The notes beneath the pieces are model-generated. The model was not told where the DNA came from, did no database searches, and saw only the letters and a list, made by a program, of their open reading frames with translations. Source: Saprospiraceae bacterium (lineage in GTDB: Bacteria > Bacteroidota > Bacteroidia > Chitinophagales > Saprospiraceae). Taken from it: DNA of 64,000 nt. This document shows positions 7,824-33,213 of the stretch, piece by piece. The stretch lies in assembly GCA_027080725.1 (NCBI GenBank), contig JALWRC010000080.1, positions 1 to 64,000 of the forward strand, written 5' to 3'. Numbering within the stretch: position 1 is the first letter of the stretch; each line of letters begins with the position of its first letter. A program made the position numbers and the translations under genes.

Positions 7824-9842
7824 CTAAGTTGTCATCCACCTGAAATCACAAATTTTATCACCGTTAGCGATGCTTCCTTTTCTTTCTAATTTTCCACCCC
7901 ACTTTTCAGCTAAGGCAAAATCTAGTTTACACCAAGTATTGTAACAAACATCTCCTATTCCGTTTTCGACAAAATAATCCGCTACTCTACACTGCTTACA
8001 ATCAAATGCCACCGTATTCTTGTCAGCTACTACATCTTCCCAAATATAATCGGGGGAAGAAAATGGAAATATGCGAAATATCTGTGTTGCAATTTCCATT
8101 CTTTTGTGTTTGTCATTCGAAAACACATTAGCAATTAGCATCGGTAAATCCCCCATTTTGCTATAGATACTCCAACAAATATTATAGAGGATTTTTATCG
8201 ATTCTTCCTTATTTTTTCCAATTGAGATTAAGTTCTCATAAAAAGCAACTGAATAGCATGCCATTCGAATGGTGATCGAAGCGCCAAGTGATTTTTGTTT
8301 AGATAAATCGGGCTCTTTATTTTTGTATTGAATGAGTGTGTTGTTTAATATTATGTCTGTAACTTTTTCATTAAAATGCATTCGTAATTCTTTTTCTGCG
8401 AAGTGCTTGATCAGATAAAAAATAATGTCATTCTTGTCTGTATAGTTTTTGATGCTTTTGAAAATTTTTTCATAAAGTATTGAAAACATCAAATCTTCTT
8501 CAACACCTTTAGTATTACTTGATAAAGAAGGAACTATTTCTCCTAAAAGAAAAAAGTCAGGCATGGTTTGGGTAACTCGTTCTTTTATTATGTCTCCTTC
8601 AATTATCAAACGGGTAAGCTCCTTTAGAATAATTGGTTTGGTTATTTTCTCATAGTGTGCATTTGGTGCTAGCTCAAAAGATAAAGCTTCTGCAGTTGTT
8701 AATGCTTTGGCGTGTAATAGCAAGTCAGCAGGAAAAATATAGCCAAATTTGACACCAGCCTCTATCATTTTAATATAGACTTTAGTAATAGAAACCTCTT
8801 TTAATTTACTTGAATAAAAACTATTTGCCAATTCTTCGAATACCTTATAAAAGGCCTCTTCATCAGCATTGTTAAGCTCCTTACATTGTTTTTTGAAATG
8901 ATAAAACGCTTTTTTAACATCATTATTTACAACTGATAACCAGTATAATACAAACCTATTTCTCTCTTCTTTTGTTAACTCGCCAAACATTCCAAAGTCA
9001 AGCAATACGATTTTTCCATCTTCTCTGAAGAAAATATTACCTGGATGTAAATCTGCGTGAAATAGTCCATCAGAGATGAACATTTTTAATTCCATTTCAG
9101 CAAGACGTATATTAAGGCTGCTTTTTTCTTGCTCTGATAATATCTCAATCGCTTCTTTGAGCCTTAGACCCTGAACTCTTTCCATTGTCAATACTTTATC
9201 AGAACTGTAAGGCCAGAATACTCTGGGAAAGACGATATCCTCCCAATTGGAAAAGTTGTGGGCAAATCGCTCAATGGTTTCTCCTTCTTTCAAATAATCA
9301 AGTTCTTGTATTGTATAACGTTTAAATTCAAGAAAGCCATTTAACAGATTCATCTTACGAATTCGATTTGGAGCAAAGAACCTAGCGATGTCCAATAGTT
9401 TATTCAATCGCTTCAAATCTTGAATAACTTTGCTCTTTACGCCCTTCCTCTGAACTTTAATAGCAACTTCGTCTCCCTGTATCGTCTTCCCTATATGTAC
9501 TTGAGCTAAAGAGGCTGCAGCAATTGGCTCTTTGGCAAAGAAAATAAATAAATCTTCTATTGGTTGCGATAGTTCCGTCTCGATAATCTCTTTTACCTCT
9601 CTGTATTCAAAAAATGGAACACCCTCTTGAAGACGTTGTAATGCATTTGTATATTGAGTAGGTAGCATGTCGGTTCGGGTACTTAAAATCTGTCCGATTT
9701 TAATAAATACCGGCCCCAATTCTAGTAGATCATTAACTAATTTATCAGGATAATTTGACAATTCTTTCTCCTCTTCTCCTAATTTAGAGAACCTCCTAAT
9801 CCTTGTCAATTGCTTGATTCCTATCATTATTATTCTCCACAT
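7824..9842 (-). CDS. UbiB/ABC1-family kinase-like protein fused to an ATC-hydrolase-like domain
   Basis: 672 residues. Residues about 30-450 are an atypical UbiB/ADCK kinase-like domain: the IKIGQ motif at 47-51, the Ala-rich AAASLAQVH loop at 108-116, Lys in VAIK at 129, HADLHPGN at 262-269 and DFG at 282-284. Family members support quinone biosynthesis. The C-terminal about 170 residues match the family of L-2-amino-thiazoline-4-carboxylate hydrolase-like proteins, ending in a Cys pattern (FDCKQC near 613, DVCYNTWC, ICDF). The same pattern occurs in the separate gene at 15979-16623. No C-terminal membrane pair typical of UbiB is obvious. It is the last gene of the minus-strand metal island, 58 bases after the CopB-type ATPase gene. 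Confidence 0.8.
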   Translation of the reverse strand: MWRIIMIGIKQLTRIRRFSKLGEEEKELSNYPDKLVNDLLELGPVFIKIGQILSTRTDMLPTQYTNALQRLQEGVPFFEYREVKEIIETELSQPIEDLFIFFAKEPIAAASLAQVHIGKTIQGDEVAIKVQRKGVKSKVIQDLKRLNKLLDIARFFAPNRIRKMNLLNGFLEFKRYTIQELDYLKEGETIERFAHNFSNWEDIVFPRVFWPYSSDKVLTMERVQGLRLKEAIEILSEQEKSSLNIRLAEMELKMFISDGLFHADLHPGNIFFREDGKIVLLDFGMFGELTKEERNRFVLYWLSVVNNDVKKAFYHFKKQCKELNNADEEAFYKVFEELANSFYSSKLKEVSITKVYIKMIEAGVKFGYIFPADLLLHAKALTTAEALSFELAPNAHYEKITKPIILKELTRLIIEGDIIKERVTQTMPDFFLLGEIVPSLSSNTKGVEEDLMFSILYEKIFKSIKNYTDKNDIIFYLIKHFAEKELRMHFNEKVTDIILNNTLIQYKNKEPDLSKQKSLGASITIRMACYSVAFYENLISIGKNKEESIKILYNICWSIYSKMGDLPMLIANVFSNDKHKRMEIATQIFRIFPFSSPDYIWEDVVADKNTVAFDCKQCRVADYFVENGIGDVCYNTWCKLDFALAEKWGGKLERKGSIANGDKICDFRWMTT

Positions 9843-9900: not shown

Positions 9901-11937
9901 TTAATTGCTCCCAATTTTCCGCTTCAATAACTGTGCATTGATGGCGACAATAACCGTACTAAGACTCATAAAAACAGCCCCAATAGCAGGACCGAGCACG
10001 AAGCCGGAAGAATACAAAACACCGGCAGCAAGGGGGATTGCGATGATGTTATATGCTGTTGCCCAAGCCAGATTTTGAATCATCTTGTTATAGGTCGCTT
10101 TACCGAATAAAATCAAATTGGCAATGTCTTTAGGATTGCTATTGACGAGGATAATATCCGCTGTTTCGGCGGCTACGTCTGTGCCGGAGCCTACGGCGAT
10201 GCCGACGTTTGCCTTTGCCAAGGCAGGGGCATCGTTGACCCCATCACCAGTCATGGCAACAAACTCTCCTTTGTTTTGGAGCTCTTCTACTATTTCCACC
10301 TTTTGGTGTGGGAGTACCTCTGCATAATAACCGTCTAGTCCGAGTTTTTTGCTAACGGCTTTGGCGGTTTTTTCGTTATCGCCGGTTGCCATGAATACTT
10401 TGATATTGTTTTGCTTGAAGGTCTTAATGGCTTCGTCAGATTCCGGTCTTATTTCATCCGCCAGAGCGATATATCCGATTAATTGATTACCTATCAATAC
10501 AAATACAACTGTTTCTGCCGCATCGCTATAAGCATCTTCGGGGATGTTTATTCCTTCATCCCGTAGGTAACCGGGACTGACGATTTTTATTTTTGCTCCA
10601 TCTACTTCCCCTTCTACACCTTTGCCCGTGATGGCGTTGAAGTTTTTAGGAGTTAGAATCGTGATATTCTCCGCTTTTGCTTTATTGACGATCCCTACAG
10701 CTATGGGATGCTCCGAACCTTGCTCCAAAGCACTGGCAAGCCGTAGAATTTCATTTTCATCGTATCGTTTATCGACGGATTCGATGCGGGTGACACCAAA
10801 GTCGCCCTTGGTCAGCGTTCCGGTCTTATCAAACAGCAAGGCAGAAATCTTACGGGACTCTTCAAAGGCGGTTCGGTTACGGATAAGTAGCCCGTTTTGG
10901 GCAGAGACCGCAGTTGAAATAGCGACAACCAAAGGAATAGCTAATCCCAAGGCGTGGGGACAGGCGATGACCATGACGGTCACCATTCGCTCCAATGCGA
11001 AAACAAAAGGGTAGCCCAAAATAAGCCAAACGGCTAAGGTGATAAAACCAACAGCAAGTGCGATGTAAGTAAGCCATTTGGCCGCCCTGTCCGAGAGATT
11101 TTGCATTTTTGATTTACTTTTTTGTGCATCCTCGACCATTTTGATAACCTTATTGAGGTAGCTGTCTTTTCCTGTATTGACCACTTGCACTCGTAGGGAG
11201 CCGTTGCCATTGACAGAGCCACCTATTACCTTGTCTCCCTTCTCTTTTCCTACCGGTTTGGATTCACCGGTGAGCATGGACTCATTGATGTAACTATTAC
11301 CATCGACGATGATGCCGTCCGCAGGCACTTTTTCTCCGGGTTTAATCAGAATGGTATCGCCCTTCAATAAATTTTCGAGTTTGATGTCTATTATCTTGTC
11401 ACCTTCCACTTTATGCGCCTCTGATGGCATCATGCTGACCAGTAATTGCAGCGCTTCTGATGCGCCCAATATGCTTTTCATTTCTATCCAGTGTCCCAAT
11501 AGCATAATTGTGATAAGTGTGGCTAATTCCCAGAAGAAATCAACACCCGGCAAGCCAAATACAGTTGCCGAGCTATAAAAATAAGCGACTGTTATAGCCA
11601 TGAATATAAGGGTCATCATCCCCGGTATCCGCTTTTTCATTTCGGATAGGAATCCTTTGATAAATGGCCAACCTCCGTAGAAGTAAACAATGGTTGACAA
11701 GACGAACAGGACGTATTGATTGCCCGGGACGGACAATTCATACCCAAAAAACTTTTGTATCATTGGCGAAAGCAATAAAATGGGAATGGCAAGTGCCAAA
11801 GTAACCCAGAATCGCTTTTTAAAGTCATTTATCATCATCTGATGATGGTCGTGGCCGGGCTTCCCCATAGGAGCATTGCCTCCTCCGTGATCCATTTTTG
11901 AGTGATCCATATTTTTATGGTGTTTGTGATTTTCCAT
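9901..11937 (-). CDS. copB: CopB-type copper P1B ATPase (CPH motif)
   Basis: 678 residues. The N-terminus is rich in His, Met and Asp (about residues 1-36) and replaces the usual CxxC metal domain. P-type ATPase signatures: TGES at 223-226, the transmembrane metal site CPH at 326-328, DKTGT with the phosphorylated Asp near 370, SEHP, and GDGVNDAP. CPH together with a His-rich N-terminus is typical of P1B-3 (CopB) ATPases, linked to export of Cu(II) or Cu(I) from the cytoplasm. It lies 74 bases after the multicopper oxidase gene in the same direction, so the exported copper would meet that oxidase in the periplasm. Confidence 0.9.
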   Translation of the reverse strand: MENHKHHKNMDHSKMDHGGGNAPMGKPGHDHHQMMINDFKKRFWVTLALAIPILLLSPMIQKFFGYELSVPGNQYVLFVLSTIVYFYGGWPFIKGFLSEMKKRIPGMMTLIFMAITVAYFYSSATVFGLPGVDFFWELATLITIMLLGHWIEMKSILGASEALQLLVSMMPSEAHKVEGDKIIDIKLENLLKGDTILIKPGEKVPADGIIVDGNSYINESMLTGESKPVGKEKGDKVIGGSVNGNGSLRVQVVNTGKDSYLNKVIKMVEDAQKSKSKMQNLSDRAAKWLTYIALAVGFITLAVWLILGYPFVFALERMVTVMVIACPHALGLAIPLVVAISTAVSAQNGLLIRNRTAFEESRKISALLFDKTGTLTKGDFGVTRIESVDKRYDENEILRLASALEQGSEHPIAVGIVNKAKAENITILTPKNFNAITGKGVEGEVDGAKIKIVSPGYLRDEGINIPEDAYSDAAETVVFVLIGNQLIGYIALADEIRPESDEAIKTFKQNNIKVFMATGDNEKTAKAVSKKLGLDGYYAEVLPHQKVEIVEELQNKGEFVAMTGDGVNDAPALAKANVGIAVGSGTDVAAETADIILVNSNPKDIANLILFGKATYNKMIQNLAWATAYNIIAIPLAAGVLYSSGFVLGPAIGAVFMSLSTVIVAINAQLLKRKIGSN

Positions 11938-12011: not shown

Positions 12012-14294
12012 TTAAAATCTTATTGATAGCCCTCCACCGGCACCAAACCTATTGTCATAGTTTGCCATTAGTGAGAAATTTCTGGAAAACATATATTCCA
12101 GTCCGGCACTCCATACTACCTCCGATTCGTATTTTTCACCTTCCGGGAAATTGTTGACAAGCCCCAAATCCATTTGATATTCGTAATATCCGAAAATGGA
12201 TAACTTAGGAAAAATCATGATGCTCCTTCCCAATGAAATTCTGGGGCGAAGTTGGTTGTCAATACGGGCATCCAGACTAAACAGATAGGGGGTTAATAAG
12301 CGGACTCCCGCTACAGCAGTAGTCGTTAAAGTATCGAGATTGCCCGGATACTCGTTTTCTACATTTATACCACCAAAAACACGGAAGAAATCGTGTATGT
12401 AATATTCATAACTCGCTTCTGCTTCCAGATTTTTATTCCAGCCGTATTCCACGGAGAGGTTGAACTGATTTCGAATGTTAGATGTCGATAAATTGAGCAT
12501 CATGGCATTTGAAGCAGCATCGAGCATACCCCAGAAATAGAATCTATCCGTCTCTGCAACTAATGTTTTCACAGGATAACCTTTCAGGCGGGTATCTCGC
12601 GGTGTGTCATAACTGATGACACGTGCCATGCCTCCCATCATGTGGTATAGAATATGACAGTGGAAAAACCAATCCCCGTATTCATTCCCGTAAAACTCAA
12701 TGGTTACCGCCTGCATGGGGGGGACATTAACGGTGTGCTTCAAGGGCGAGTATGCTCCGTTTTTATTGATTACCCTGAAAAAATGCCCATGTAAGTGCAT
12801 AGGGTGGTGCATCATTGTTAGGTTGTTCAGGGTGATTCTTGTAACCTGATTCCCCTTGATTTTTATCACGTCGGCTTCTGATAGCGGCACGCCGTTCATA
12901 CTCCAAATATACCGCTGCATATTTCCCGTTAAATTCAAAAGAATTTCTTTGACCGGGACATTTTTATCATAGCTCGTCTTATCCGGAGATTTAAGATAAT
13001 CATAAGTGTAAGTCATGTATTTATCCATCTCATTCGCCTTGTCCTTTTTCATTTTCATGGGTTCATTTTTAGTCACTGTAGAGCTGTCCTTTTTCATGCT
13101 TTTCATGTCATTGCCCATTTTCATGTCACCGCTCATTTTCATGCCGTATTTCTCTTTCATTTGATAGCGAGTATCCTTTTTTGGACGACTTTTGAAGGCA
13201 TGAGCACCCATTTTCATGTCCATTTTGGCCATTTTTTTCATCATGGCGATTTTATCTGGTTTGGGTACGCTAGGCGCTGGGATAGTAGTACCACTACCAA
13301 GGAATGCAGAAGTGCCACCAGAGCCATCCTGTGCCTTAATTTTGAATTCAAATTTACCATTTTCGGGGATGGTGATGATAAAGTCATAGGCTTCGGCGAT
13401 GGCAATGAAAATATAGTCTTTCATAACTGGCACGACATCTAGCCCATCTGCTGAGACAAGAAGGGGATTGCCGCCGCCCATGGTAATCCAAAAGCTGGTT
13501 GAAGCCGCTCCGTTCACAATTCTCAATCGGACTTTTTCGCCGGGTTTGAATTCGGGATATTCTACATTTTCTTTACCGTTGATTAGAAAGGCAGGATAGT
13601 AAATGTCAGCAATGTCTGCTCCTTCCATTCGCTGTTTCCAGAAGTTGAGTTGTGCTTTTAGTCCGCCCCTTGCGATAACTTGGTTTAGTGGCGTATTGGT
13701 TCCCTTTTTGATGCCGTACCACTCCGAACCCCGCTTGAGGTTGCGCAGGACGCTCATCGGGTTTTCATTCGTCCAATCAGAGAGTAGAAGCACCTGTTCT
13801 TTATCATAATCGAGCGACTCCTGTTTGGGGTGGATGACAAAGGCACCAAATACCCCGATTTGCTCCTGTAGCATGGTATGTCCGTGATACCAATAGGTAC
13901 CCGATTGTTTGATGGGAAATTCGTACTTTTGGGTCTGCCCGGGCAAAATAGGTGGAGTCGTCAGATAAGGAACGCCATCGTAAAAATTGGGCAATAATAA
14001 TCCGTGCCAGTGAATAGAGGTCTCCTCGTGCATTTCATTTTTAACATAAATGACGGCATATTCCCCTTCGGTAAATTCTAATGTTGGTCCGGGAATACTG
14101 CCATTGATGGTCATTCCGTTGACTTCTTTTCCTGCTTTATTGACTTTTTCCTGTCGGAGTGTCAAGGTGTATTCCCTGACGGGCAGGTTGTCCTTATTCC
14201 CTTCGACGGATTGCTTCATTTGCGCGAATAAAGCGCTACTTGCAAATAGACAAAGCGCAAGAACTAAAAGAGATATTTTCCTTATTTTTCTCAT
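12012..14294 (-). CDS. Multicopper oxidase (CopA/PcoA type) fused to an outer-membrane barrel (CopB/PcoB type)
   Basis: 760 residues. The signal peptide ends near residue 24. Copper ligand motifs of a three-domain laccase-like oxidase: HWHG at 95-98, YHGHT at 136-140, HPMHLHGHF, and HCHILYHMMGGM. A Met/Lys-rich segment lies between (KMDMKMGAH, MKMSGDMKM). From about residue 583 to the end the protein is strand-rich with alternating residues and finishes in a terminal Phe (LSIRF), resembling the copper-resistance outer-membrane protein PcoB/CopB family. In Proteobacteria these are two proteins; here one chain would tether the oxidase to the outer membrane. It lies 3 bases after the NADH dehydrogenase gene, so the two are tightly coupled. 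Confidence 0.85.
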   Translation of the reverse strand: MRKIRKISLLVLALCLFASSALFAQMKQSVEGNKDNLPVREYTLTLRQEKVNKAGKEVNGMTINGSIPGPTLEFTEGEYAVIYVKNEMHEETSIHWHGLLLPNFYDGVPYLTTPPILPGQTQKYEFPIKQSGTYWYHGHTMLQEQIGVFGAFVIHPKQESLDYDKEQVLLLSDWTNENPMSVLRNLKRGSEWYGIKKGTNTPLNQVIARGGLKAQLNFWKQRMEGADIADIYYPAFLINGKENVEYPEFKPGEKVRLRIVNGAASTSFWITMGGGNPLLVSADGLDVVPVMKDYIFIAIAEAYDFIITIPENGKFEFKIKAQDGSGGTSAFLGSGTTIPAPSVPKPDKIAMMKKMAKMDMKMGAHAFKSRPKKDTRYQMKEKYGMKMSGDMKMGNDMKSMKKDSSTVTKNEPMKMKKDKANEMDKYMTYTYDYLKSPDKTSYDKNVPVKEILLNLTGNMQRYIWSMNGVPLSEADVIKIKGNQVTRITLNNLTMMHHPMHLHGHFFRVINKNGAYSPLKHTVNVPPMQAVTIEFYGNEYGDWFFHCHILYHMMGGMARVISYDTPRDTRLKGYPVKTLVAETDRFYFWGMLDAASNAMMLNLSTSNIRNQFNLSVEYGWNKNLEAEASYEYYIHDFFRVFGGINVENEYPGNLDTLTTTAVAGVRLLTPYLFSLDARIDNQLRPRISLGRSIMIFPKLSIFGYYEYQMDLGLVNNFPEGEKYESEVVWSAGLEYMFSRNFSLMANYDNRFGAGGGLSIRF

Positions 14295-14296
14295 TG

Positions 14297-15634
14297 TTAC
14301 TTTTTTTTGTTTCTAATAATTAGACGATTGCTCTTTTCATAGCTGAAGTAGCTTATTGTCCAGTTGATTCCTACTAATATTTTATTTCTAAATCCACTAA
14401 TGGACATTAAATGCACAAATGACCACAAAAGCCAGGCGATGTATCCTGCGAATTTTAGTTTGCCTAAATCCGCTACAGCCCTGCGTTTGCCTACTGTGGC
14501 GAGGGAGCCTTTGTCCTTGTACACAAATGGTTTTAGGGGTTTATTACGGATGGTATTTAGGATGTTTTGAGCCAATAATTTCCCCTGTTGAATAGCGGGT
14601 TGTGCCACCTGAGGGTGTCCTTTAGGCGTTTTTTTAGAGATAATGGCAGCAATATCTCCAACGGCGAAGACATCCCTGATACCGGTCACTTGAAGGTATT
14701 GGTCAACTTCGATTCTGTTACCTGCCACCAAATGATTTTGGTCAATCCCCGATGGTAATTGCCCTTTGACACCTGCTGTCCAGATAAAGTTTCTCGCAGA
14801 AATTTTTCTGCCGCTTTTTGTCGAGACAATGTTGCCGTCATAATCTGTTACCAATTCGTTTAATAGCACATTTACATTCAAATCTTCTAAGTATTTCAGC
14901 GTCTTGGCGGAGGCATTTACGGACATGGCGGGTATGACTCTTTCCGTACCTTCCACTAGTGTTATCTCCATGTTTGAAGCTGGGTACTCCGAGTAATCTT
15001 TAGGCAAAATATAATTGCGGAATTCGGCAAGAGCACCCGCCATTTCGACACCCGCCGGTCCACCTCCAACCACTACAAAATTGGTAAGTGCAGCTCTTTC
15101 CTCATCATCGCAAGTGATGGCGGCCTGTTCCAGATTTTGAATCATCTGATGGCGAATGTCTAATGAATCTCTGAGTCCCTTCATCCCGAGGGCGTATTTT
15201 TCTACGTTTTTCATCCCGAAGAAATTGGTTGTTGTCCCCGTTGCCAATACCAAATAATCATAGCTCAGCGTGCCTTTGTTTGTTTGGACCATTTTAGTGT
15301 CGGTATCGACAGTCTCAACTTCTGCTAACCGGAAAATAACATTTTTATACCCGGAAATTTGTTTGCGAAAAGGAAAGGCAATACTGTCGGGTTCCAACCC
15401 ACTCGTCGCTACCTGATAGAGTAGGGGCTGAAACTGATGAAAATTATTTTTGTCAATCAGTACAACCTGAACCGGCTTTCTTTTCAACCCTTCGATTAAT
15501 GACAGCCCCGCAAAACCACCACCTATAATGACAACCCTGGGCAATTCTGTTGCAGGCAGACATATTGGTGCAGTTTTGTCGGGGCTGTGATGGTTTGCTT
15601 TACTGTTATGCATTTTATGATGAACTACTTTCAT
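14297..15634 (-). CDS. ndh: Type II NADH dehydrogenase-like FAD oxidoreductase
   Basis: 445 residues with two Rossmann dinucleotide sites (IIGGGFAG near residue 35 for FAD and VVVGGGPAG in the middle for NADH), the FHQFQPLLYQVAT segment, and a C-terminal hydrophobic stretch (YIAWLLWSFVHLMSI) for membrane attachment. Such enzymes pass electrons from NADH to quinone without pumping protons. The first about 20 residues are unusually His-rich (HHKMHNSKANHH), which is not usual for the family and suggests metal binding. Six bases separate it from the PII-like gene upstream and three from the oxidase gene downstream. Confidence 0.88.
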   Translation of the reverse strand: MKVVHHKMHNSKANHHSPDKTAPICLPATELPRVVIIGGGFAGLSLIEGLKRKPVQVVLIDKNNFHQFQPLLYQVATSGLEPDSIAFPFRKQISGYKNVIFRLAEVETVDTDTKMVQTNKGTLSYDYLVLATGTTTNFFGMKNVEKYALGMKGLRDSLDIRHQMIQNLEQAAITCDDEERAALTNFVVVGGGPAGVEMAGALAEFRNYILPKDYSEYPASNMEITLVEGTERVIPAMSVNASAKTLKYLEDLNVNVLLNELVTDYDGNIVSTKSGRKISARNFIWTAGVKGQLPSGIDQNHLVAGNRIEVDQYLQVTGIRDVFAVGDIAAIISKKTPKGHPQVAQPAIQQGKLLAQNILNTIRNKPLKPFVYKDKGSLATVGKRRAVADLGKLKFAGYIAWLLWSFVHLMSISGFRNKILVGINWTISYFSYEKSNRLIIRNKKK

Positions 15635-15640
15635 GAGAAA

Positions 15641-15982
15641 TTAAATTAACTCCAATTTATTATCGTCTGTTCGGATTTTATAGACCTCCTCGACAGGTGA
15701 GACCATTACCATACCATCTCCTTTGTAGCCTGTTCTTGCTGTTTTTCGGATAATGGATACAACCCTTTCTACCTCTGATGAGCTAATGAGCAGTTCTATT
15801 TTCAAAACTTTATACGCATCAGCAAAAGGGTATTTTTGACTGATGTGTTCTTTTTCGCGATCAGAATAACGTCCGGTTCCTTCGCACTCTACGAATGTCA
15901 TGCAGCAAAAGCCTTCCGATTTGAGTGTGTAATAGACTTCCTGTATTTTTCGCCGTCTGATATAGGCTTTTATTAGTTTCAT
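15641..15982 (-). CDS. PII-like signalling protein
   Basis: 113 residues with the GlnB/GlnK layout: MKLIKAYIRR start, a C-terminal TGYKGDGMVMVSPVEEVYKIRT segment closely like the PII nucleotide-binding end, and a central loop that lacks the uridylylated Tyr of classical PII. Divergent PII proteins of this kind (the PII-NG group) are known next to heavy-metal efflux genes. It probably senses a nucleotide or metal and modulates a partner in this cluster. Its start overlaps the end of the ATC-like gene by 4 bases. Confidence 0.75.
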   Translation of the reverse strand: MKLIKAYIRRRKIQEVYYTLKSEGFCCMTFVECEGTGRYSDREKEHISQKYPFADAYKVLKIELLISSSEVERVVSIIRKTARTGYKGDGMVMVSPVEEVYKIRTDDNKLELI

Positions 15983-16623
15983 ATTTTTCTTTTTTCGATA
16001 AATTTAAAATTGCAACAATTATTTTCGTTTGCAAGTGTCTTGTCTCGTTTGAGCCTGACGTTCCACTTTTCTGCAAGTGGGAAATCGAGATTACACCAGG
16101 CTTCAATACATAGATCGTTCAAATTATGCTTCTTGAAAAAATTAGCTGCCGGGCACTTTTTTACGTCAAAAGCAACTATTGATTTTTCTGTGTCTAAAAT
16201 TTCCATTTCATATCCGGGGCTTTTATACGGAAAGTAATTTATAAAAAACCCCATCGCTATTTTTACTCTTGTTATCGGCTTCCTTGAAAACGGTCGTGTC
16301 AAAACCCAAAATCGATTGGTCAATTTTTCGTACACCATCCAATTGATTGCTGATGTTAGCTTGATGGCCTCCTGTTTGTTTAGAGATGCCTCTAATAGCT
16401 GTTCGTATATTATCAATGTCAGTAGTGAAAGTCTGAGCATCACATTCGCACCAAAGGTTCCCTCCTTTTTAAGTGTCGTCGAGCGAATATCAAGTTCTCG
16501 CCAGACGATGCCTGGGAGGTTGTCGAGTTTATTCTTATCGATTTTCCCTGTCAGGATTTGCTCTAAGGCTACTTTTGCTGTCTGATGGATATTGAAATAG
16601 ATGAATTTATTCAGTAGATTCAT
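15979..16623 (-). CDS. Stand-alone ATC-hydrolase-like protein
   Basis: About 214 residues from the ATG at 16623; an in-frame ATG at 16665 would add 14 residues but overlaps the upstream gene further. It resembles the L-2-amino-thiazoline-4-carboxylate hydrolase-like family. The C-terminus carries conserved Cys residues (KKCPAANFF, DLCIEAWC, NNCCNF) matching those at the end of the UbiB fusion at 7824-9842, with nearly the same spacing and an identical LAEKW segment. The catalytic reaction in this setting is unknown; the Cys pattern would suit metal binding. A dispersed TATGAAATG copy lies inside at 16204-16212. Confidence 0.7.
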   Translation of the reverse strand: MNLLNKFIYFNIHQTAKVALEQILTGKIDKNKLDNLPGIVWRELDIRSTTLKKEGTFGANVMLRLSLLTLIIYEQLLEASLNKQEAIKLTSAINWMVYEKLTNRFWVLTRPFSRKPITRVKIAMGFFINYFPYKSPGYEMEILDTEKSIVAFDVKKCPAANFFKKHNLNDLCIEAWCNLDFPLAEKWNVRLKRDKTLANENNCCNFKFIEKRKI

Positions 16624-19939: not shown

Positions 19940-20419
19940 TTATAATAGATAAGATTCAAAAAGGACCTGGGCGTCCCTCGAAATTATTGGTGGTTGATAA
20001 TGAATGAAATGAGTGCTATCATACTTATTACTCAAATCATCAATATAAAGGTGTGGAACACTCACAGTGAAATATTGCTGCAATTGCCCACTAACTATAA
20101 TTTGAGTGGCAGGGGTATTTTGGTCATCATTAAAGCAAAAGAAAATAGTTCTATTGTGGCAACAGTCATTTTTGCCTATCATATCGCACTTGTGTAGATG
20201 CTTTACTTGTTTCTGATTAAGTTTGCAACAAGCTTTATAAGCTTCATTTCCCATTGGTACTTCATGGCAACTATCTGCTTTTCCAATAAAACTGAAAGAA
20301 ACCAAATGATTTTGGCAATAGTGCATATCCATTGTAAAGCCAATCGATATCCAAAACATCAGTACCGCCATCGTCAAGGCAAAAAGTCGATATGAAAAAT
20401 TAAATGAATGCATCAACAA
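19940..20419 (-). CDS. HYC_CC_PP-type membrane or secreted protein
   Basis: 159 residues. Hydrophobic N-terminus (LFALTMAVLMFWISIGF) followed by MDMHYCQ, a DCCHN pair and a YQPPI segment, the three marks of the HYC_CC_PP family of Bacteroidota. The Cys/His residues suit metal binding outside the cytoplasm. A second member lies at 32752-33213. Both are near the upstream end of a metal-export sub-cluster. Confidence 0.68.
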   Translation of the reverse strand: MLMHSFNFSYRLFALTMAVLMFWISIGFTMDMHYCQNHLVSFSFIGKADSCHEVPMGNEAYKACCKLNQKQVKHLHKCDMIGKNDCCHNRTIFFCFNDDQNTPATQIIVSGQLQQYFTVSVPHLYIDDLSNKYDSTHFIHYQPPIISRDAQVLFESYLL

Positions 20420-20509: not shown

Positions 20510-21070
20510 TCAAGCCTCATCCAACGCCTTACGGATATGAGAATAATTCTTCTTAAAGGCGGACGGAGTCATTCCAGTTGTTTTCTTGAATTGAGCCGAG
20601 AGGTGGGCAGAGCTACTGTAGTTCATTCGAAAAGCAATTTCGGCGAGGCTTAACTCGTCATAGGTCAATAGTTCTTTCACCTTTTCTATTTTTTGGGCAA
20701 TGACAAACTTCTCAATCGTCTGTCCTTCAATCTTGGAAAACATACGACTCAAATAGCTGTATTCATAATGAAGTTTTTCAGATATTAAGGTTGAGAAATT
20801 CACAAGAAAAGGTTCTTCCTTAAAATGGATTTCTTTAATGATAATAGATTTAATCGCATTCACTAAACATGCGTTCTTATCATATATTAACTCGAATCCT
20901 TTTTCTATAAGGAGTTTTTCCAATGACTGTTTTTGCTCTTTCGATAAATCTAATTGAATTGTAACTCTTCCCAACTCTATTTCCGCATAAGGGATTGTTA
21001 ATTCATCTAGAATCATTTTAATAGATGCAATACAACGAGGGCAAACCATATATTTTATTGATAATTGCAT
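20510..21070 (-). CDS. AraC-family regulator with CxxC metal-domain-like N-terminus
   Basis: 186 residues. Residues 1-70 look like a reduced heavy-metal-associated domain (YMVCPRCIASIKMIL, beta-alpha-beta size). Residues about 95-180 form an AraC helix-turn-helix pair (LAEIAFRMNYSSSAHLSAQFKKTTGMTPSAF). A metal-binding sensor joined to AraC would allow direct response to Cu or a similar ion. It lies in the middle of the metal island, in the same direction as its neighbours. The 233 bases upstream (21071-21303) hold no gene. Confidence 0.82.
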   Translation of the reverse strand: MQLSIKYMVCPRCIASIKMILDELTIPYAEIELGRVTIQLDLSKEQKQSLEKLLIEKGFELIYDKNACLVNAIKSIIIKEIHFKEEPFLVNFSTLISEKLHYEYSYLSRMFSKIEGQTIEKFVIAQKIEKVKELLTYDELSLAEIAFRMNYSSSAHLSAQFKKTTGMTPSAFKKNYSHIRKALDEA

Positions 21071-27653: not shown

Positions 27654-30600
27654 TTATAATCCTTCGTACAGCCTCTTGACTGCCGCGACGGCCATGGCTT
27701 TTTGTATGAAGGCATCCAGTTTTTTTAAGTCGTAGTCTATCAAACTGACATGATACTTTAGTAATTCATCAAAACTCTTCCCGGCACTGCTGTAATCTGC
27801 TTGTAGAATATGGATGATGGTCCGTGTTGTTTGAGATTGTTCCTCATACAGTTGGTACCGTATCCCGGCGGTGTTATACTGCTCCCAAGCCTGTCTGGCC
27901 CTGTCGGCCAGTTGCAAGGCAAATGCTCGCTCTTGTTCCTCCAGCGCGGCAATCCTCCATTTTTGCTCGTTATCTCTGGCTCGATATTGTTTTCGATAAA
28001 GGGGCACCTTGATCTTCATCTTTGGGATGAGGATATCTCTGCCATTGCCGGAAGGGTCTGCGTCTGTCCTTCTTCCTACCGCGATGTAATCCAATCCCAC
28101 TCCAAAGACCGGTTTGGACCGGTATTGATTGAGGTCTATGTTGCGCCGGGCAATCTCCTTTTGCAGTTCCAACATCTCTAATCCCGGATGGACGGCCCGA
28201 ACCTTTTGCAGCAGGGCTTCATACCTCATGGGCATTGTCGTATCCGGAATGCTCCTTATTCGTATGGGGACATCGCTCATACGTCCGATTGCGGTATTAA
28301 TGGCAGAGGTGGGTTTTTGTTTTGCCGTCTCGAGCAACTCCAACTGCCGGTGGAGCTCTCTGATTTTGAGTTGCACCCGCAACACATCGGACATACTGCC
28401 TTGTCCGTTGCGGGTCTTCACCATCGAAAGGGACTCCAACGCTTTGAATAATTCCAAATCCTCCTTCAGAATCCGTTGCTTTTGCTCGAGCTTATACAGG
28501 GTATAGTATGCCGTGCGAATCCGCCATGCGAGATCCAGTGCCACTCCGGCAGATTGTATCGGCTTGGCTTCGGCTTTGGCATCGGCAATGGCGGCCCTTG
28601 CTTGTAGGGTCCCTTTCCATGGAAACATTTGCGAAGCTCCTATCGACAACCTCTGAGGTCCGAGTCGCGTCTCCGGCGGAAGGGCAAAAATTCCCACTCC
28701 CACTTCCGGGTCGGGCAACACATTGACCTGTGGTGCCATGTACTTATCAGCCCGGTATCCTTCTTCCAATGCTTTGAGCGTAGGGTTTTCCTCCTTTGCT
28801 ACCTTCAAAAGGCTGTCGAGGGATTGGGCGTGTGCCGGCACACTTAAAGCCACCATTGCTACAATACTCAACCATTTCATACCAAATCCTTTACTATTCT
28901 TCCATTGTAATTTTCCCTTTTCATACATGAAGTACAAGACGGGGACGACAAACATGGTGATGACCGCCAGCAACATGCCTCCAAAGGATGGGATGGCCAT
29001 CGGAACCATGATATCTGAGCCTCGTCCCGTGGAACTCAATACCGGCAATAACGCCAATATCGTCGTCGCGGAAGTCATTACCGCCGGGCGTATCCTGCGC
29101 TTTCCCCCTTCCAACACCGCCAGTCGCAAGGCTTCCGTCGTCTGTGGCTTGTTCTTCCTGAACGACTCCTGTAAGAAGGTGGCGATAAGTACCCCATCAT
29201 CTGTCGCTATCCCAAACAAAGCCAGGAATCCCACCCATACCGCGACGCTAAGATTGATGGGGTGGATGCCAAACATATCTCTCATATTGACTCCGAGCAC
29301 TTCGAAATCCATAAACCACGGCTGACCGTACAGCCAAAGCATGATAAATCCCCCGGCGAAGGCCACAAATACTCCGGAGAAGACCATCAGGGTCACCGGA
29401 ATGGAGTGGAATTGGAAGTACAGGATAAGGAAGATGACCAACAGGGCAATGGGAACCACGATGCGAAGCCGCTTGTTGGCCCGTTCTTGCTGCTCGAAGT
29501 TGCCCGCAAATTTGTAGGTCACTCCTGGGGGCACCTTCAGAGCGCCGGACTGTATCTTTGCATTGAATAGCCGGTTGGCATGGTCCACGACCTGCCCTTC
29601 AGAAAACCCACTTTCCTTGTCAAACAATACATAACCCACGAGGAATCCGTCTTCACTCTTGATGGACTGCGGCCCGCGAACAAAACGGATATCCGACACC
29701 TCCCCAAGCGGAATCTGGCCTCCTGTTCCGGTGGGTAACAACACTCGACTTATCGCATCAGGGTCATTTCTCAGCTCCCTGGGATAACGCAATCGAATCG
29801 CATAACGCTCCCGTCCTTCGACCGTCTCCGTCATTTTCATACCTCCAATGGCGGTTTGGATGTAGTTTTGCACCCGTGCGATGGTCAATCCGTGTCGTGC
29901 GATGGCATTGCGGTCAATCGCAATCTCGAGATAGGGTTTGCCGATCATTCGCTCGGCAAAAACCGCTGCATCCTTGACTCCTTCTACCTCTTTGAGATGC
30001 TTTTCGAGTTCCAGACCAAAGGACTCTATGACTTTCAAATCGGAGCCAAAAACCTTAATGCCCATCGGTGCGCGCATCCCGGTCTGAAGCATGACCAGCC
30101 GGGTTTCAATCGGTTGGAGTTTGGGCGCCGAAGTGACTCCCGGCAAGCGGGTCGCCTTGACAATCTCTTGCCAAATATCATCGGGAGAATGGATGTGCTC
30201 CCTCCATTGGCGGAAGTATTGTCCGTCTTCGTCGGGGATGAGTTGACCGGTGGAATCCCGGACAAATACCCCATCATCATCCACACGGAAACGCACCCGG
30301 TGCCCGGAAGCATCCGTCTTGTATTCCGATTTGTACAATATGACATTCTCGTACATCGATGTGGGGGCCGGATCCAGGGCACTCTCGACATGACCGAGTT
30401 TGCCGACTACCGTCTCCACCTCCGGAATGGCGGTCACCGCCATGTCCAAAAGTCGAACATTATTGATATTTTCTTCCATTCCTGCATGTGGCATGGCGGT
30501 AGGCATGAGAAGGAAGGAACCCTCATCCAGAGAGGGCATGAACTCCTGCCCGGTATTTTTCATGATCTTGAATCCCCAGACCACTATCAGCAAAACACCT

Positions 30601-32555
30601 GCTAAAAAGAACCAGCGCAAACGGATGATTGTGCGAAGAATACTTTCATACCATCGTATCACCGAGAAGAAAAATCCCATCAGTAAGGCGATGATGAGGA
30701 GGAGAAAAAGGAAATTGGTTAAGGTCGTATGCTCCACCCCCAAAGGCATCCAGGCTTCTGCGAGAAACCAGGTGACGACCAGCGCATAGAGGATGTTTTT
30801 GACAAAATCAACCCTGCTTTTCCATCTTGTCCCTGCCAACAAAAGCACGAGAACGGAGATGAACTCTACAATTCCTATAAAAAGGGCGATCAACCCTAAG
30901 CCTGAACCGCTTCCCCAAAATAAAATCCCTCCTCCTGCGGTCAGCAACAAGGGGCTGATGAGCTTTGCCCTGCCTTGTCTGCTCCTGATAGAAAAAATCG
31001 AGTGTGCCATCGCTGGGATAATCGTTATGGCGATGATAATAGAGGACAGTAGCGCAAAGGTCTTGGTAAAGGCCAGGGGGCGAAACATCTTTCCCTCTGC
31101 TGCTTCCATCGTAAAGACCGGTAGAAAACTCACAATAGTTGTCATTACCGCCGTAATCACCGCTGAAGCGACCTCCGTCGTAGCTACATATACCGAAGTC
31201 AACAGGTCCTCTCCTTCGGGGGCGGTCTTAAACCGGTGGATCATACTCTCGACCAGGACAATGCCCATGTCCACCATGGTCCCTATCGCAATGGCAATTC
31301 CGGAAAGCGCTACAATATTGGCATCTACACCAAATTGCTTCATGGCGATAAATACCATCAGAATCGCGACGGGGAGTGCTCCGGCGACGAGTAAGGAGGA
31401 ACGGAGATTCATCAGTAACAAAATCACCACAATGATCGTAATCAGCACTTCCAATCTCAATGCTTCGTCCAAGGAGCCGAGTGTTTCCTTAATGAGGTTG
31501 GTCCGGTCATAAAACGGAACGATGGTCACTTGTGACCGTGTGCCGTCGGCAAGGGTTTTGCTCGGCAATCCGGGGGCTAACAGGGCGATTTTCTCCTTGA
31601 CATTATTGATGACCTGGAGTGGATTCGAGCCATAGCGTGCGACTACCACTCCCCCGACGGCTTGTGCACCCGACTTATCCAAAGCGCCTCTCCGGTCTGC
31701 GGGGCCCAAATTGACACGGGCGATATCTTTAATCTTTATAGGCACATTGTTACGGGTGGCGACGACGGATTCTTCGATGTCGGAGATGCTTTTCACATAG
31801 CCGAGGCCACGCACGAAGTACTCCGCATTGTTAATCTCTAAGGTTTGTGCGCCGATATCGCGATTGCTATTCTTGACGGCAGCCATGACCTGTTCGAGAT
31901 TAATATTGTAGATGCGCATGGCGTCGGGGTCAACGTCCACCTGATACTCCTTGACATATCCCCCTATGGAAGAAACTTCGGATACCCCTTCGGCAGCAGC
32001 CAATCCATATCGCACAAAGTAATCCTGGATGGAGCGAAGCTCCTGCAAATCCCATCCTCCTGTCGGATTCCCTTCGGGATCCCGGCCTTCGAGGGTGTAC
32101 CAGAATATCTGCCCCAGTGCCGTGGCATCTGGTCCGAGAGCGGGTTGGACGCCGTCCGGCAAAATCCCGGAGGGCAACGAATTGAGTTTCTCCAAAATAC
32201 GGGAGCGACTCCAATAAAACTCCACGTCTTCCTTGAAAATGATATAGATGCTCGAGAAGCCAAACATCGAATTGCTGCGGATGCTCTTGACTCCCGGGAT
32301 ACCGAGCAATGCGCTCGTTAGAGGGTAGGTGATCTGGTCTTCTACGTCCTGTGGGGAACGCCCCGGCCAAGGAGTAAACACGATTTGTTGGTTCTCCCCG
32401 ATATCCGGAATGGCATCCACGGAGACAGGGTCTTTGGGTAGCCAGTCCAACCCCAGGTCAAAGGGCGCATGTACGATGCCCCAACCCACCATCAACAGGA
32501 GGAAGAGATAGGCTACTAATTTGTTTTCTAAAAAGAATCGGATGATTTTATTCAT
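27654..32555 (-). CDS. CusA/CzcA-type RND metal pump fused to a TolC-like outer-membrane protein
   Basis: 1633 residues in one uninterrupted frame. Residues 1 to about 1215 are a heavy-metal RND pump (FWTPWPGR-like FTPWPGRSP, GIPGVKSIRS, charged and Met residues in the membrane helices), longer than the usual about 1045 residues because of an extra hydrophobic stretch near residues 530-640. At residue 1226 a perfect signal-peptide-like start appears (MKWLSIVAMVALSVPAHAQ), followed by an outer-membrane efflux protein of about 390 residues with long helices (LDSLLKVAKEENPTL, YYTLYKLEQKQRIL). A separate TolC gene would start at 28880. A TATGAAATGGTTGA motif copy lies exactly at the junction (core 28873-28881). 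Either it is a true fusion or internal initiation also makes TolC alone. Confidence 0.85.
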   Translation of the reverse strand: MNKIIRFFLENKLVAYLFLLLMVGWGIVHAPFDLGLDWLPKDPVSVDAIPDIGENQQIVFTPWPGRSPQDVEDQITYPLTSALLGIPGVKSIRSNSMFGFSSIYIIFKEDVEFYWSRSRILEKLNSLPSGILPDGVQPALGPDATALGQIFWYTLEGRDPEGNPTGGWDLQELRSIQDYFVRYGLAAAEGVSEVSSIGGYVKEYQVDVDPDAMRIYNINLEQVMAAVKNSNRDIGAQTLEINNAEYFVRGLGYVKSISDIEESVVATRNNVPIKIKDIARVNLGPADRRGALDKSGAQAVGGVVVARYGSNPLQVINNVKEKIALLAPGLPSKTLADGTRSQVTIVPFYDRTNLIKETLGSLDEALRLEVLITIIVVILLLMNLRSSLLVAGALPVAILMVFIAMKQFGVDANIVALSGIAIAIGTMVDMGIVLVESMIHRFKTAPEGEDLLTSVYVATTEVASAVITAVMTTIVSFLPVFTMEAAEGKMFRPLAFTKTFALLSSIIIAITIIPAMAHSIFSIRSRQGRAKLISPLLLTAGGGILFWGSGSGLGLIALFIGIVEFISVLVLLLAGTRWKSRVDFVKNILYALVVTWFLAEAWMPLGVEHTTLTNFLFLLLIIALLMGFFFSVIRWYESILRTIIRLRWFFLAGVLLIVVWGFKIMKNTGQEFMPSLDEGSFLLMPTAMPHAGMEENINNVRLLDMAVTAIPEVETVVGKLGHVESALDPAPTSMYENVILYKSEYKTDASGHRVRFRVDDDGVFVRDSTGQLIPDEDGQYFRQWREHIHSPDDIWQEIVKATRLPGVTSAPKLQPIETRLVMLQTGMRAPMGIKVFGSDLKVIESFGLELEKHLKEVEGVKDAAVFAERMIGKPYLEIAIDRNAIARHGLTIARVQNYIQTAIGGMKMTETVEGRERYAIRLRYPRELRNDPDAISRVLLPTGTGGQIPLGEVSDIRFVRGPQSIKSEDGFLVGYVLFDKESGFSEGQVVDHANRLFNAKIQSGALKVPPGVTYKFAGNFEQQERANKRLRIVVPIALLVIFLILYFQFHSIPVTLMVFSGVFVAFAGGFIMLWLYGQPWFMDFEVLGVNMRDMFGIHPINLSVAVWVGFLALFGIATDDGVLIATFLQESFRKNKPQTTEALRLAVLEGGKRRIRPAVMTSATTILALLPVLSSTGRGSDIMVPMAIPSFGGMLLAVITMFVVPVLYFMYEKGKLQWKNSKGFGMKWLSIVAMVALSVPAHAQSLDSLLKVAKEENPTLKALEEGYRADKYMAPQVNVLPDPEVGVGIFALPPETRLGPQRLSIGASQMFPWKGTLQARAAIADAKAEAKPIQSAGVALDLAWRIRTAYYTLYKLEQKQRILKEDLELFKALESLSMVKTRNGQGSMSDVLRVQLKIRELHRQLELLETAKQKPTSAINTAIGRMSDVPIRIRSIPDTTMPMRYEALLQKVRAVHPGLEMLELQKEIARRNIDLNQYRSKPVFGVGLDYIAVGRRTDADPSGNGRDILIPKMKIKVPLYRKQYRARDNEQKWRIAALEEQERAFALQLADRARQAWEQYNTAGIRYQLYEEQSQTTRTIIHILQADYSSAGKSFDELLKYHVSLIDYDLKKLDAFIQKAMAVAAVKRLYEGL

Positions 32556-32751: not shown

Positions 32752-33213
32752 TTATAAACGGAAATTTTCAAAAAGGACATACCTGTCCCTGGGAAGATTA
32801 AAGTCTGCATGGATTTTGAAAACAGGAAGGGACTCCTGCTCACTTGTTGAAAACAATACTCTATAAGGAGGTACTACCGCCACCAAACCGGGAGAAGTAT
32901 ACACCGGACTTGCGATAGTTGTCGCAGAGCCGAAAGCAATATTTACGGGTAATTTGGTATAGGAGGCTTCGTTGTGGCAGCAGGGTTTGGTTTTTTTCTT
33001 GCTGTGCTTGCAGTGATGATGCTTCTTGCAAGAAGAAACCCCGCTTTGTTGCGAATTCATCTCGAGGCAGGTCTTCGCTTTACCGAACAAAGAGATGCTT
33101 TTGACTCGCCCTTGACAAATATGACGATCCATGCTTACCCCAATAGAGGCAAAGCCGACCAAAAAGGCCAGAATCAATGCCACGGGGCGCAATATTCGTT
33201 TATTATTTGTCAT
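32752..33213 (-). CDS. HYC_CC_PP-like protein of the efflux operon
   Basis: 153 residues. Hydrophobic N-terminus (VALILAFLVGFASIGVSM), then MDRHICQ, a Cys/His/Lys-rich part (CKKHHHCKHSKKKTKPCCHN), a VPPY segment and the ending YVLFENFRL. It is a divergent relative of the protein at 19940-20419. Probably periplasmic metal binding. First gene of the minus-strand efflux unit; the pump gene follows after 196 bases in which I see no gene, only a TATGAAATG motif copy at 32643-32651. Confidence 0.58.
   Translation of the reverse strand: MTNNKRILRPVALILAFLVGFASIGVSMDRHICQGRVKSISLFGKAKTCLEMNSQQSGVSSCKKHHHCKHSKKKTKPCCHNEASYTKLPVNIAFGSATTIASPVYTSPGLVAVVPPYRVLFSTSEQESLPVFKIHADFNLPRDRYVLFENFRL

Follow-up and report, generated by a model that had tools for sequence, protein, structure and literature searches.

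What UbiB/COQ8 proteins do biochemically has been asked for a long time, and the locus described here raises the question in a particular form: what does a UbiB-like ATPase do when it carries a cysteine-rich domain at its C-terminus and is encoded among copper genes? The gene lies in a window of 64,000 nucleotides, which is the whole stretch of DNA that was analysed, from a contig of a Saprospiraceae bacterium (JALWRC010000080.1). A preliminary description had pointed to this protein (P0001) and to a stand-alone relative of its C-terminal domain (P0002) in the same island.

The ATPase, its additional domain and the copper island

The features of the locus are the following, with P0001 and its parts given first.

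7824..9842, minus strand: P0001, ABC1/UbiB ATPase with a C-terminal ATC_hydrolase-family domain (PF14196), 672 aa (Pfam)
8907..9635, minus strand: ABC1 atypical-kinase domain of P0001, residues 70-312, with AAAS, K129, E180/D182, HADLHPGN and DFG
7827..8375, minus strand: C-terminal domain region of P0001, residues 490-672, standing where the membrane helices of UbiB usually are
7848..8000, minus strand: five-cysteine cluster of P0001 (C615, C618, C633, C638, C665), invariant across 13 aligned fusions
9901..11937, minus strand: CopB-type P1B ATPase with a CPH motif, directly upstream of P0001 (gap 58 bp)
12012..14294, minus strand: multicopper oxidase (CopA-like), His-rich cupredoxin motifs in the translation
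14297..15634, minus strand: NDH-2, type-2 NADH:quinone oxidoreductase-like (Pfam Pyr_redox_2 and NDH2_C)
15641..15982, minus strand: P-II-like protein (Pfam PF00543, E=3.7e-16), overlapping the end of P0002 by 4 bp
15979..16623, minus strand: P0002, stand-alone PF14196 protein, 214 aa, with C157, C172, C177 and C204
16607..16891, minus strand: DUF5676 protein with two TM segments (Pfam, E=2.4e-15), overlapping the start of P0002 by 17 bp

P0001 combines an ABC1 domain (PF03109, residues 70-312, E=3.6e-69, 233 bits against a Pfam cut-off of 22.9) with a PF14196 domain (residues 602-669, E=1.4e-10, 42.6 bits against a cut-off of 28.1). The set of UbiB ATPase motifs is complete, as had been claimed: KIGQ, AAAS, HADLHPGN and DFG can all be read in P0001, the KxGQ motif at residues 48-51 just upstream of the ABC1 domain, and in the alignment of fusions these motifs are invariant or nearly so, except for Anaerolineae members in which DVG or DAG replaces DFG. 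P0001 has the ABC1 fold and the KxGQ, Ala-rich loop, HADxHPGN and DFG elements in common with the known UbiB/COQ8 proteins (PF03109; COQ8A, 5i35/4ped; Rv3197 MABP-1, 5yk0), and the ATPase part of its AF2 model has COQ8A as the best structural match (Foldseek, E=1.6e-17); the mean pLDDT of the model is 81.9, and at a pTM of 0.58 the mutual arrangement of the domains is not resolved in it. Unlike these proteins, P0001 has PF14196 in place of the C-terminal helices, belongs to a separate clade, and with 303.9 bits stays below the cut-off of the UbiB equivalog TIGR01982 (487.55). Long ordinary UbiBs of its class end in hydrophobic, apparently transmembrane segments that are missing in P0001, the best 19-residue hydropathy mean of which is 1.23, versus 2.05-3.12 at the C-terminus of 11 long control UbiBs. 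The lack of these segments and the separate clade rule out an ordinary UbiB extension, which is what the preliminary description had itself named as the alternative to its proposal. P0001 is the only full ABC1 protein that was found in the host genome, two further PF03109 matches being partial and weak. A role as anti-phage defence kinase was also considered and dismissed, as PADLOC gave only weak general kinase matches.

P0002 matches PF14196 (E=1.3e-12, 49.2 bits, Pfam cut-off 28.1) and no other domain. It is encoded about 6 kb from P0001, and both genes are on the minus strand, a detail absent from the preliminary description. The cysteine strings of the two proteins had been read correctly, and the kinship that they suggested is real: the C-terminal domain of P0001 and P0002 align over 163 residues with 34% identity (E=2e-35), by which chance or a local repeat as the source of the similar strings can be rejected. 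The 3.8 Mb host genome contains no third copy of the domain and no copy of this kind was found in 60 related genomes, and it is therefore likely that the domain has been acquired from outside the host lineage.

The genes for DUF5676, P0002, P-II, NDH-2, the multicopper oxidase, the CopB-type CPH ATPase and P0001 follow each other in this order on the same strand, with gaps of 6, 2, 74 and 58 bp where they do not overlap, and the run looks like one transcription unit; in a promoter and terminator scan of it, terminator-like sites were no commoner than in shuffles. The surroundings are rightly called a copper island: besides ATPases of the CopB type (CPH) and the CopA type (CPC), they encode two multicopper oxidases and efflux proteins of the Cus type. 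Islands of the same types are formed by the copper modules already known from bacteria (CopA/CopB/MCO/Cus, with DUF2933 and ICMT as cargo), and DUF2933/ICMT genes adjoining CopA have already been described in Alteromonas (PMC8478169). In the open-access literature, which leaves most subscription journals uncovered, no description of a UbiB/AarF or UbiB-PF14196 protein in copper islands was found.

The window contains some further uncommon gene products. A 1633-aa ORF (27654-32555, minus strand) combines a CusA-type RND permease and a TolC-like half of the outer-membrane-factor type, as judged from the translation by eye. A small regulator (20510-21070, minus strand) has an HMA-like CxxC N-terminus and an AraC-type helix-turn-helix, and relatives of it are encoded beside Cus genes in two of the related loci (L077, L078). 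Parts of the island are flanked by two similar small Cys/His-rich secreted proteins (19940-20419 and 32752-33213, both minus strand) that by eye appear to be paralogues.

Relatives of the fusion and their genetic neighbourhoods

The preliminary description had proposed a search for fused and split pairs and for their co-occurrence with copper ATPases, and this search was productive, as both forms are widespread, and copper or other metal ATPases accompany them much more frequently than they accompany the ordinary members of the two families. A scan of genome contigs with a three-row profile gave 25 loci. Twelve relatives are UbiB-PF14196 fusions that align end-to-end with P0001 at 40-56% identity, counting the near-identical L047 and L048 once; the N-terminus of L055 is cut, the L041 gene is in two pieces, and only fragments are present in L057, L063 and L064. 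In L041, L062 and L064 the fusion or domain gene is broken by a frameshift or stop, and these genes are possibly pseudogenes or assembly errors. The hosts of fusions are Anaerolineae, Burkholderiales, Halomonadaceae, a Rhodobacteraceae MAG, Spirochaeta and Bacteroidia, and thus belong to the Chloroflexota, Pseudomonadota, Spirochaetota and Bacteroidota, whereas the stand-alone forms were found in Acidobacteriota, Myxococcota, Chloroflexota and Alphaproteobacteria. Among the carriers is the culturable Modicisalibacter ilicicola DSM 19980 (L046). No UbiB-PF14196 fusion was found in plasmid records, and the only plasmid match to P0002 was a distant Sulfitobacter protein. The islands of L047 and L048 are nearly identical, yet were binned as a Bacteroidia MAG and a Cyclobacterium MAG, respectively, which can be due to recent transfer or to mis-binning. 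A 474-aa ORF in L075 was rejected as a further fusion, because the N-terminal half matches nothing in Pfam and looks like a spurious extension upstream of the gene; this gene probably starts at MKWLRPML.

Heavy-metal P-type ATPases are encoded in the flanks of 17 of the 25 loci, and several of the remaining loci are on short contigs or carry multicopper oxidase, DUF5676 or NDH-2 genes. Where the motifs of these ATPases can be read, they are mostly of the copper types CPC or CPH. Genes known from the window recur near the relatives: DUF5676 in L047, L048, L051, L053, L060, L064, L077 and L078, NDH-2 in L064 and L078, and multicopper oxidase homologues in several loci. In two cases a metal-binding domain is even part of the fusion itself, namely an N-terminal HMA domain (E=2.8e-15) in the Burkholderiales protein of L049 and an N-terminal YHS domain (E=7.9e-9) in the Anaerolineae protein of L042, both in one uninterrupted frame with ABC1 and PF14196. 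Some observations count against the function favoured below: stand-alone members occur also without a UbiB nearby, a metal ATPase is absent near L052, L063 and L065, and the SPC-, TPC- and CPD-type ATPases among the neighbours are not copper pumps. The ATPases with CPD instead of the usual CPC/CPH are those of L049:7675-10125, L054:4811-7405 and L055:3-2033, which adjoin fusion or stand-alone genes. Furthermore, many loci are general stress islands with genes for phosphoketolase, GAPDH and the like, and copper may therefore be just one of the contexts. Islands that include phosphoketolase or related sugar-phosphate genes also surround plasmid-encoded UbiB or PF14196 genes (L113, L115, L003), some of them with DUF2933 and ICMT.

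An unselected sample of about 1,090 genomes was drawn from the class of the window, the order of L049, the class of L042 and the family of L046. It contained five new close relatives (more than 200 bits) along with many distant PF14196 members. Every one of the five is encoded in a metal-efflux locus: in four cases the gene of a heavy-metal P-type ATPase (CPC, SPC, CPC and CPH) is no more than 10 kb away, and the fifth, L078, has CusA, CusB, NDH-2 and DUF5676 nearby. Such an ATPase was found near none of 20 ordinary PF14196 loci (Fisher, p=4e-4 for the ATPase alone and p=2e-5 for any metal-efflux gene), and 18 ordinary UbiB loci from the same class likewise gave none; in some of these controls the flanks were shorter than 10 kb at contig ends. 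The association of the subfamily with metal islands is strong.

In quick tree searches without bootstrap, with SH-aLRT supports, the UbiB parts of the fusions form one clade (99), the sister of which (99) is a UbiB from a Haloarcula litorea plasmid (WP_276274186.1). This protein has no PF14196 domain, a C-terminal tail unlike that of the fusions and no predicted membrane helices, and it is encoded 3.6 kb from a CPH ATPase gene. In the tree of the domain, a branch with a support of 85 sets the 26 metal-linked sequences apart, and among these the fusions are placed close to some of the stand-alone proteins. The pattern suggests that the UbiB in a copper setting came first and that the domain joined it once.

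Cysteine signature and fold of the domain

The cysteines C157, C177 and C204 as well as D180 (numbering of P0002) are kept in all 47 sequences that were compared. A fourth cysteine (C172 in P0002, C633 in P0001) is present in 26/26 members of the metal-linked clade and in 0/21 ordinary members, and an additional one that forms a CxxC motif (C615-x2-C618 in P0001) is shared by all fusions, three metal-linked proteins of the stand-alone kind and two ordinary members. The fourth cysteine is missing in L065 of the scan, where no metal ATPase is nearby. P0001 and P0002 share with the ATC_hydrolase family the core of three cysteines and the aspartate and score above its Pfam gathering threshold, but in contrast to ordinary PF14196 proteins they belong to a subfamily with a fourth cysteine (and a fifth in fusions), the ABC1 fusion and metal islands. 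The domain had been suspected to be a new cysteine metal-binding module. It belongs to a known Pfam family for which a relation to HNOB and V4R has been published (PMC5847659), and it is the extra cysteine that is particular to the metal-linked clade.

Structure prediction, which had been proposed for both proteins, tentatively places the domain near ligand-binding folds. The AF2 model of P0002 (mean pLDDT 94.4) has its best Foldseek matches with H-NOX, TRAPP Bet3 and the phenol sensors PoxR, MopR and DmpR, above other folds (best E=5.2e-4, probability 1.0). In VIA comparisons, the Z scores are 8.4 for Bet3 (rmsd of 4.0 over 146 aligned residues), 8.0 for H-NOX, 7.3 for DmpR, 7.2 for MopR and 7.1 for PoxR; the H-NOX/TRAPP/V4R superfamily dominates the list, although such Z scores are near the level common for unrelated models and can arise by chance. 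A survey of archaeal two-component systems from 2018 linked HNOB, V4R and ATC hydrolase domains, which share a cluster of three conserved cysteines (PMC5847659). The identity to H-NOX/TRAPP/V4R structures is 5-10%, no useful sequence relatives of the PF14196 domain were found in the PDB, and hhalign of the domain against V4R, represented by one sequence only, gave no match. Unlike H-NOX, the domain has no invariant haem histidine: in a 22-row alignment, all members of which match PF14196 in Pfam, no invariant or nearly invariant histidine was found. From the models, the PF14196 domain of P0001 and P0002 may fold like the ligand-binding proteins of the H-NOX/TRAPP/V4R type.

Possible functions

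What is new is the domain architecture and the subfamily, as both parent families are known. We tentatively favour, at somewhat less than even confidence, that P0001 is a member of an undescribed, horizontally spread UbiB/COQ8-like subfamily that acts as a partner of metal efflux, chiefly of copper, with a lipid- or quinone-directed ATPase gated by the cysteine domain. The cysteine cluster of the ligand-pocket-like domain would take a soft metal (Cu(I) or Zn) or a thiol-reactive ligand, this binding would alter the state of the ABC1 ATPase, and the ATPase, as has been proposed for other UbiB proteins, would spend ATP on moving, presenting or protecting a lipophilic compound of the membrane, here during copper excess. 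P0002 could be the free sensing or binding domain that acts in trans, or a separate buffer. A lipid or quinone target is suggested by what is known of the UbiB family and by neighbours such as NDH-2, VKOR, UbiE-like (L060) and ICMT methyltransferases; in yeast, UbiB proteins control the distribution of CoQ (PMC8346625). The VKOR domain is that of a protein in L047 (6828-8507) that also has a heavy-metal-binding HMBD and SPW repeats and is encoded 29 bp upstream of the fusion. Bacteroidota have menaquinone and not ubiquinone, and the compound in this host would most plausibly be menaquinone or a prenyl lipid. A more specific version is doubtful: the domain would be a thiolate-metal (Cu(I)) switch of the H-NOX/V4R fold on a COQ8-like ATPase, which directly couples copper sensing to the ATP-driven handling of membrane quinones or prenyl lipids in several bacterial phyla, with the haloarchaeal protein near a copper ATPase as a relative that lacks the domain.

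It is unlikely that the C-terminal domain is instead a Cu(I) chaperone or buffer and that ABC1 spends ATP to hand the metal to the CopB or CopA pump, without any lipid being involved. The HMA and YHS domains of some fused members and the extra cysteines of metal-linked members would fit such a transfer, as would the gene order, as CopB directly precedes P0001 in the window and the fusion in L058, and the stand-alone gene of L043 overlaps that of a CPC ATPase, but the core cysteines are present also in ordinary members without metal neighbours, the tail of P0001 is neither His-rich nor Met-rich, and metal transport is not a known property of the ABC1 family.

The domain could also be a true C-S hydrolase like the L-ATC hydrolase of Pseudomonas, which would open thiazoline-type cysteine adducts that are formed or needed under copper stress and supply cysteine or thiols, with ABC1 as its regulator. 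The PF14196 scores above the cut-off and the three cysteines and the aspartate in every sequence compared are in line with this, as is the cleavage of a thiazoline ring by the named member of the family (PMC5847659), but with 42-49 bits P0001 and P0002 score low in comparison to the best ordinary members (82-92 bits), and no genes of cysteine or cyanide metabolism were recognised among the neighbours, so that we regard this function as rather improbable.

That the protein is general cargo of stress islands, namely a UbiB-like ATPase that counters membrane or oxidative stress and is carried along with metal pumps without serving them, appears improbable as well. Phosphoketolase, type II GAPDH, PPK2, NhaA and AMP phosphorylase-like genes are among the neighbours, and ordinary UbiBs too are found in such plasmid islands, but the covalent HMA and YHS fusions, the subfamily-specific cysteine and the compact run with DUF5676, CopB and the multicopper oxidase in the window speak against mere cargo. 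Finally, it is highly improbable that P0001 protects or adapts ubiquinone or haem synthesis, a reading that goes back to the role in quinone or haem metabolism suggested in the preliminary description, since the family name, the adjoining NDH-2 and a UbiE-like methyltransferase in some loci are outweighed by the score under the UbiB equivalog cut-off, the use of menaquinone in Bacteroidota and the lack of an invariant haem histidine; for the first two of these reasons, ubiquinone synthesis by P0001 in this host is unlikely in any case.

The favoured function as a gated partner of metal efflux would give a physiological context to a part of PF14196, a family that is named after a single cysteine-producing enzyme. 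As the same fusion is found beside metal pumps in very distant bacteria, it hints at an unrecognised part of metal defence and at a component of copper and metal resistance in bacteria that has been overlooked. For the UbiB family, an anchor-less ATPase with a soluble, cysteine-rich ligand domain, and in places with HMA or YHS domains, would be a tractable system with an input that can be guessed, namely a metal or a thiol ligand.
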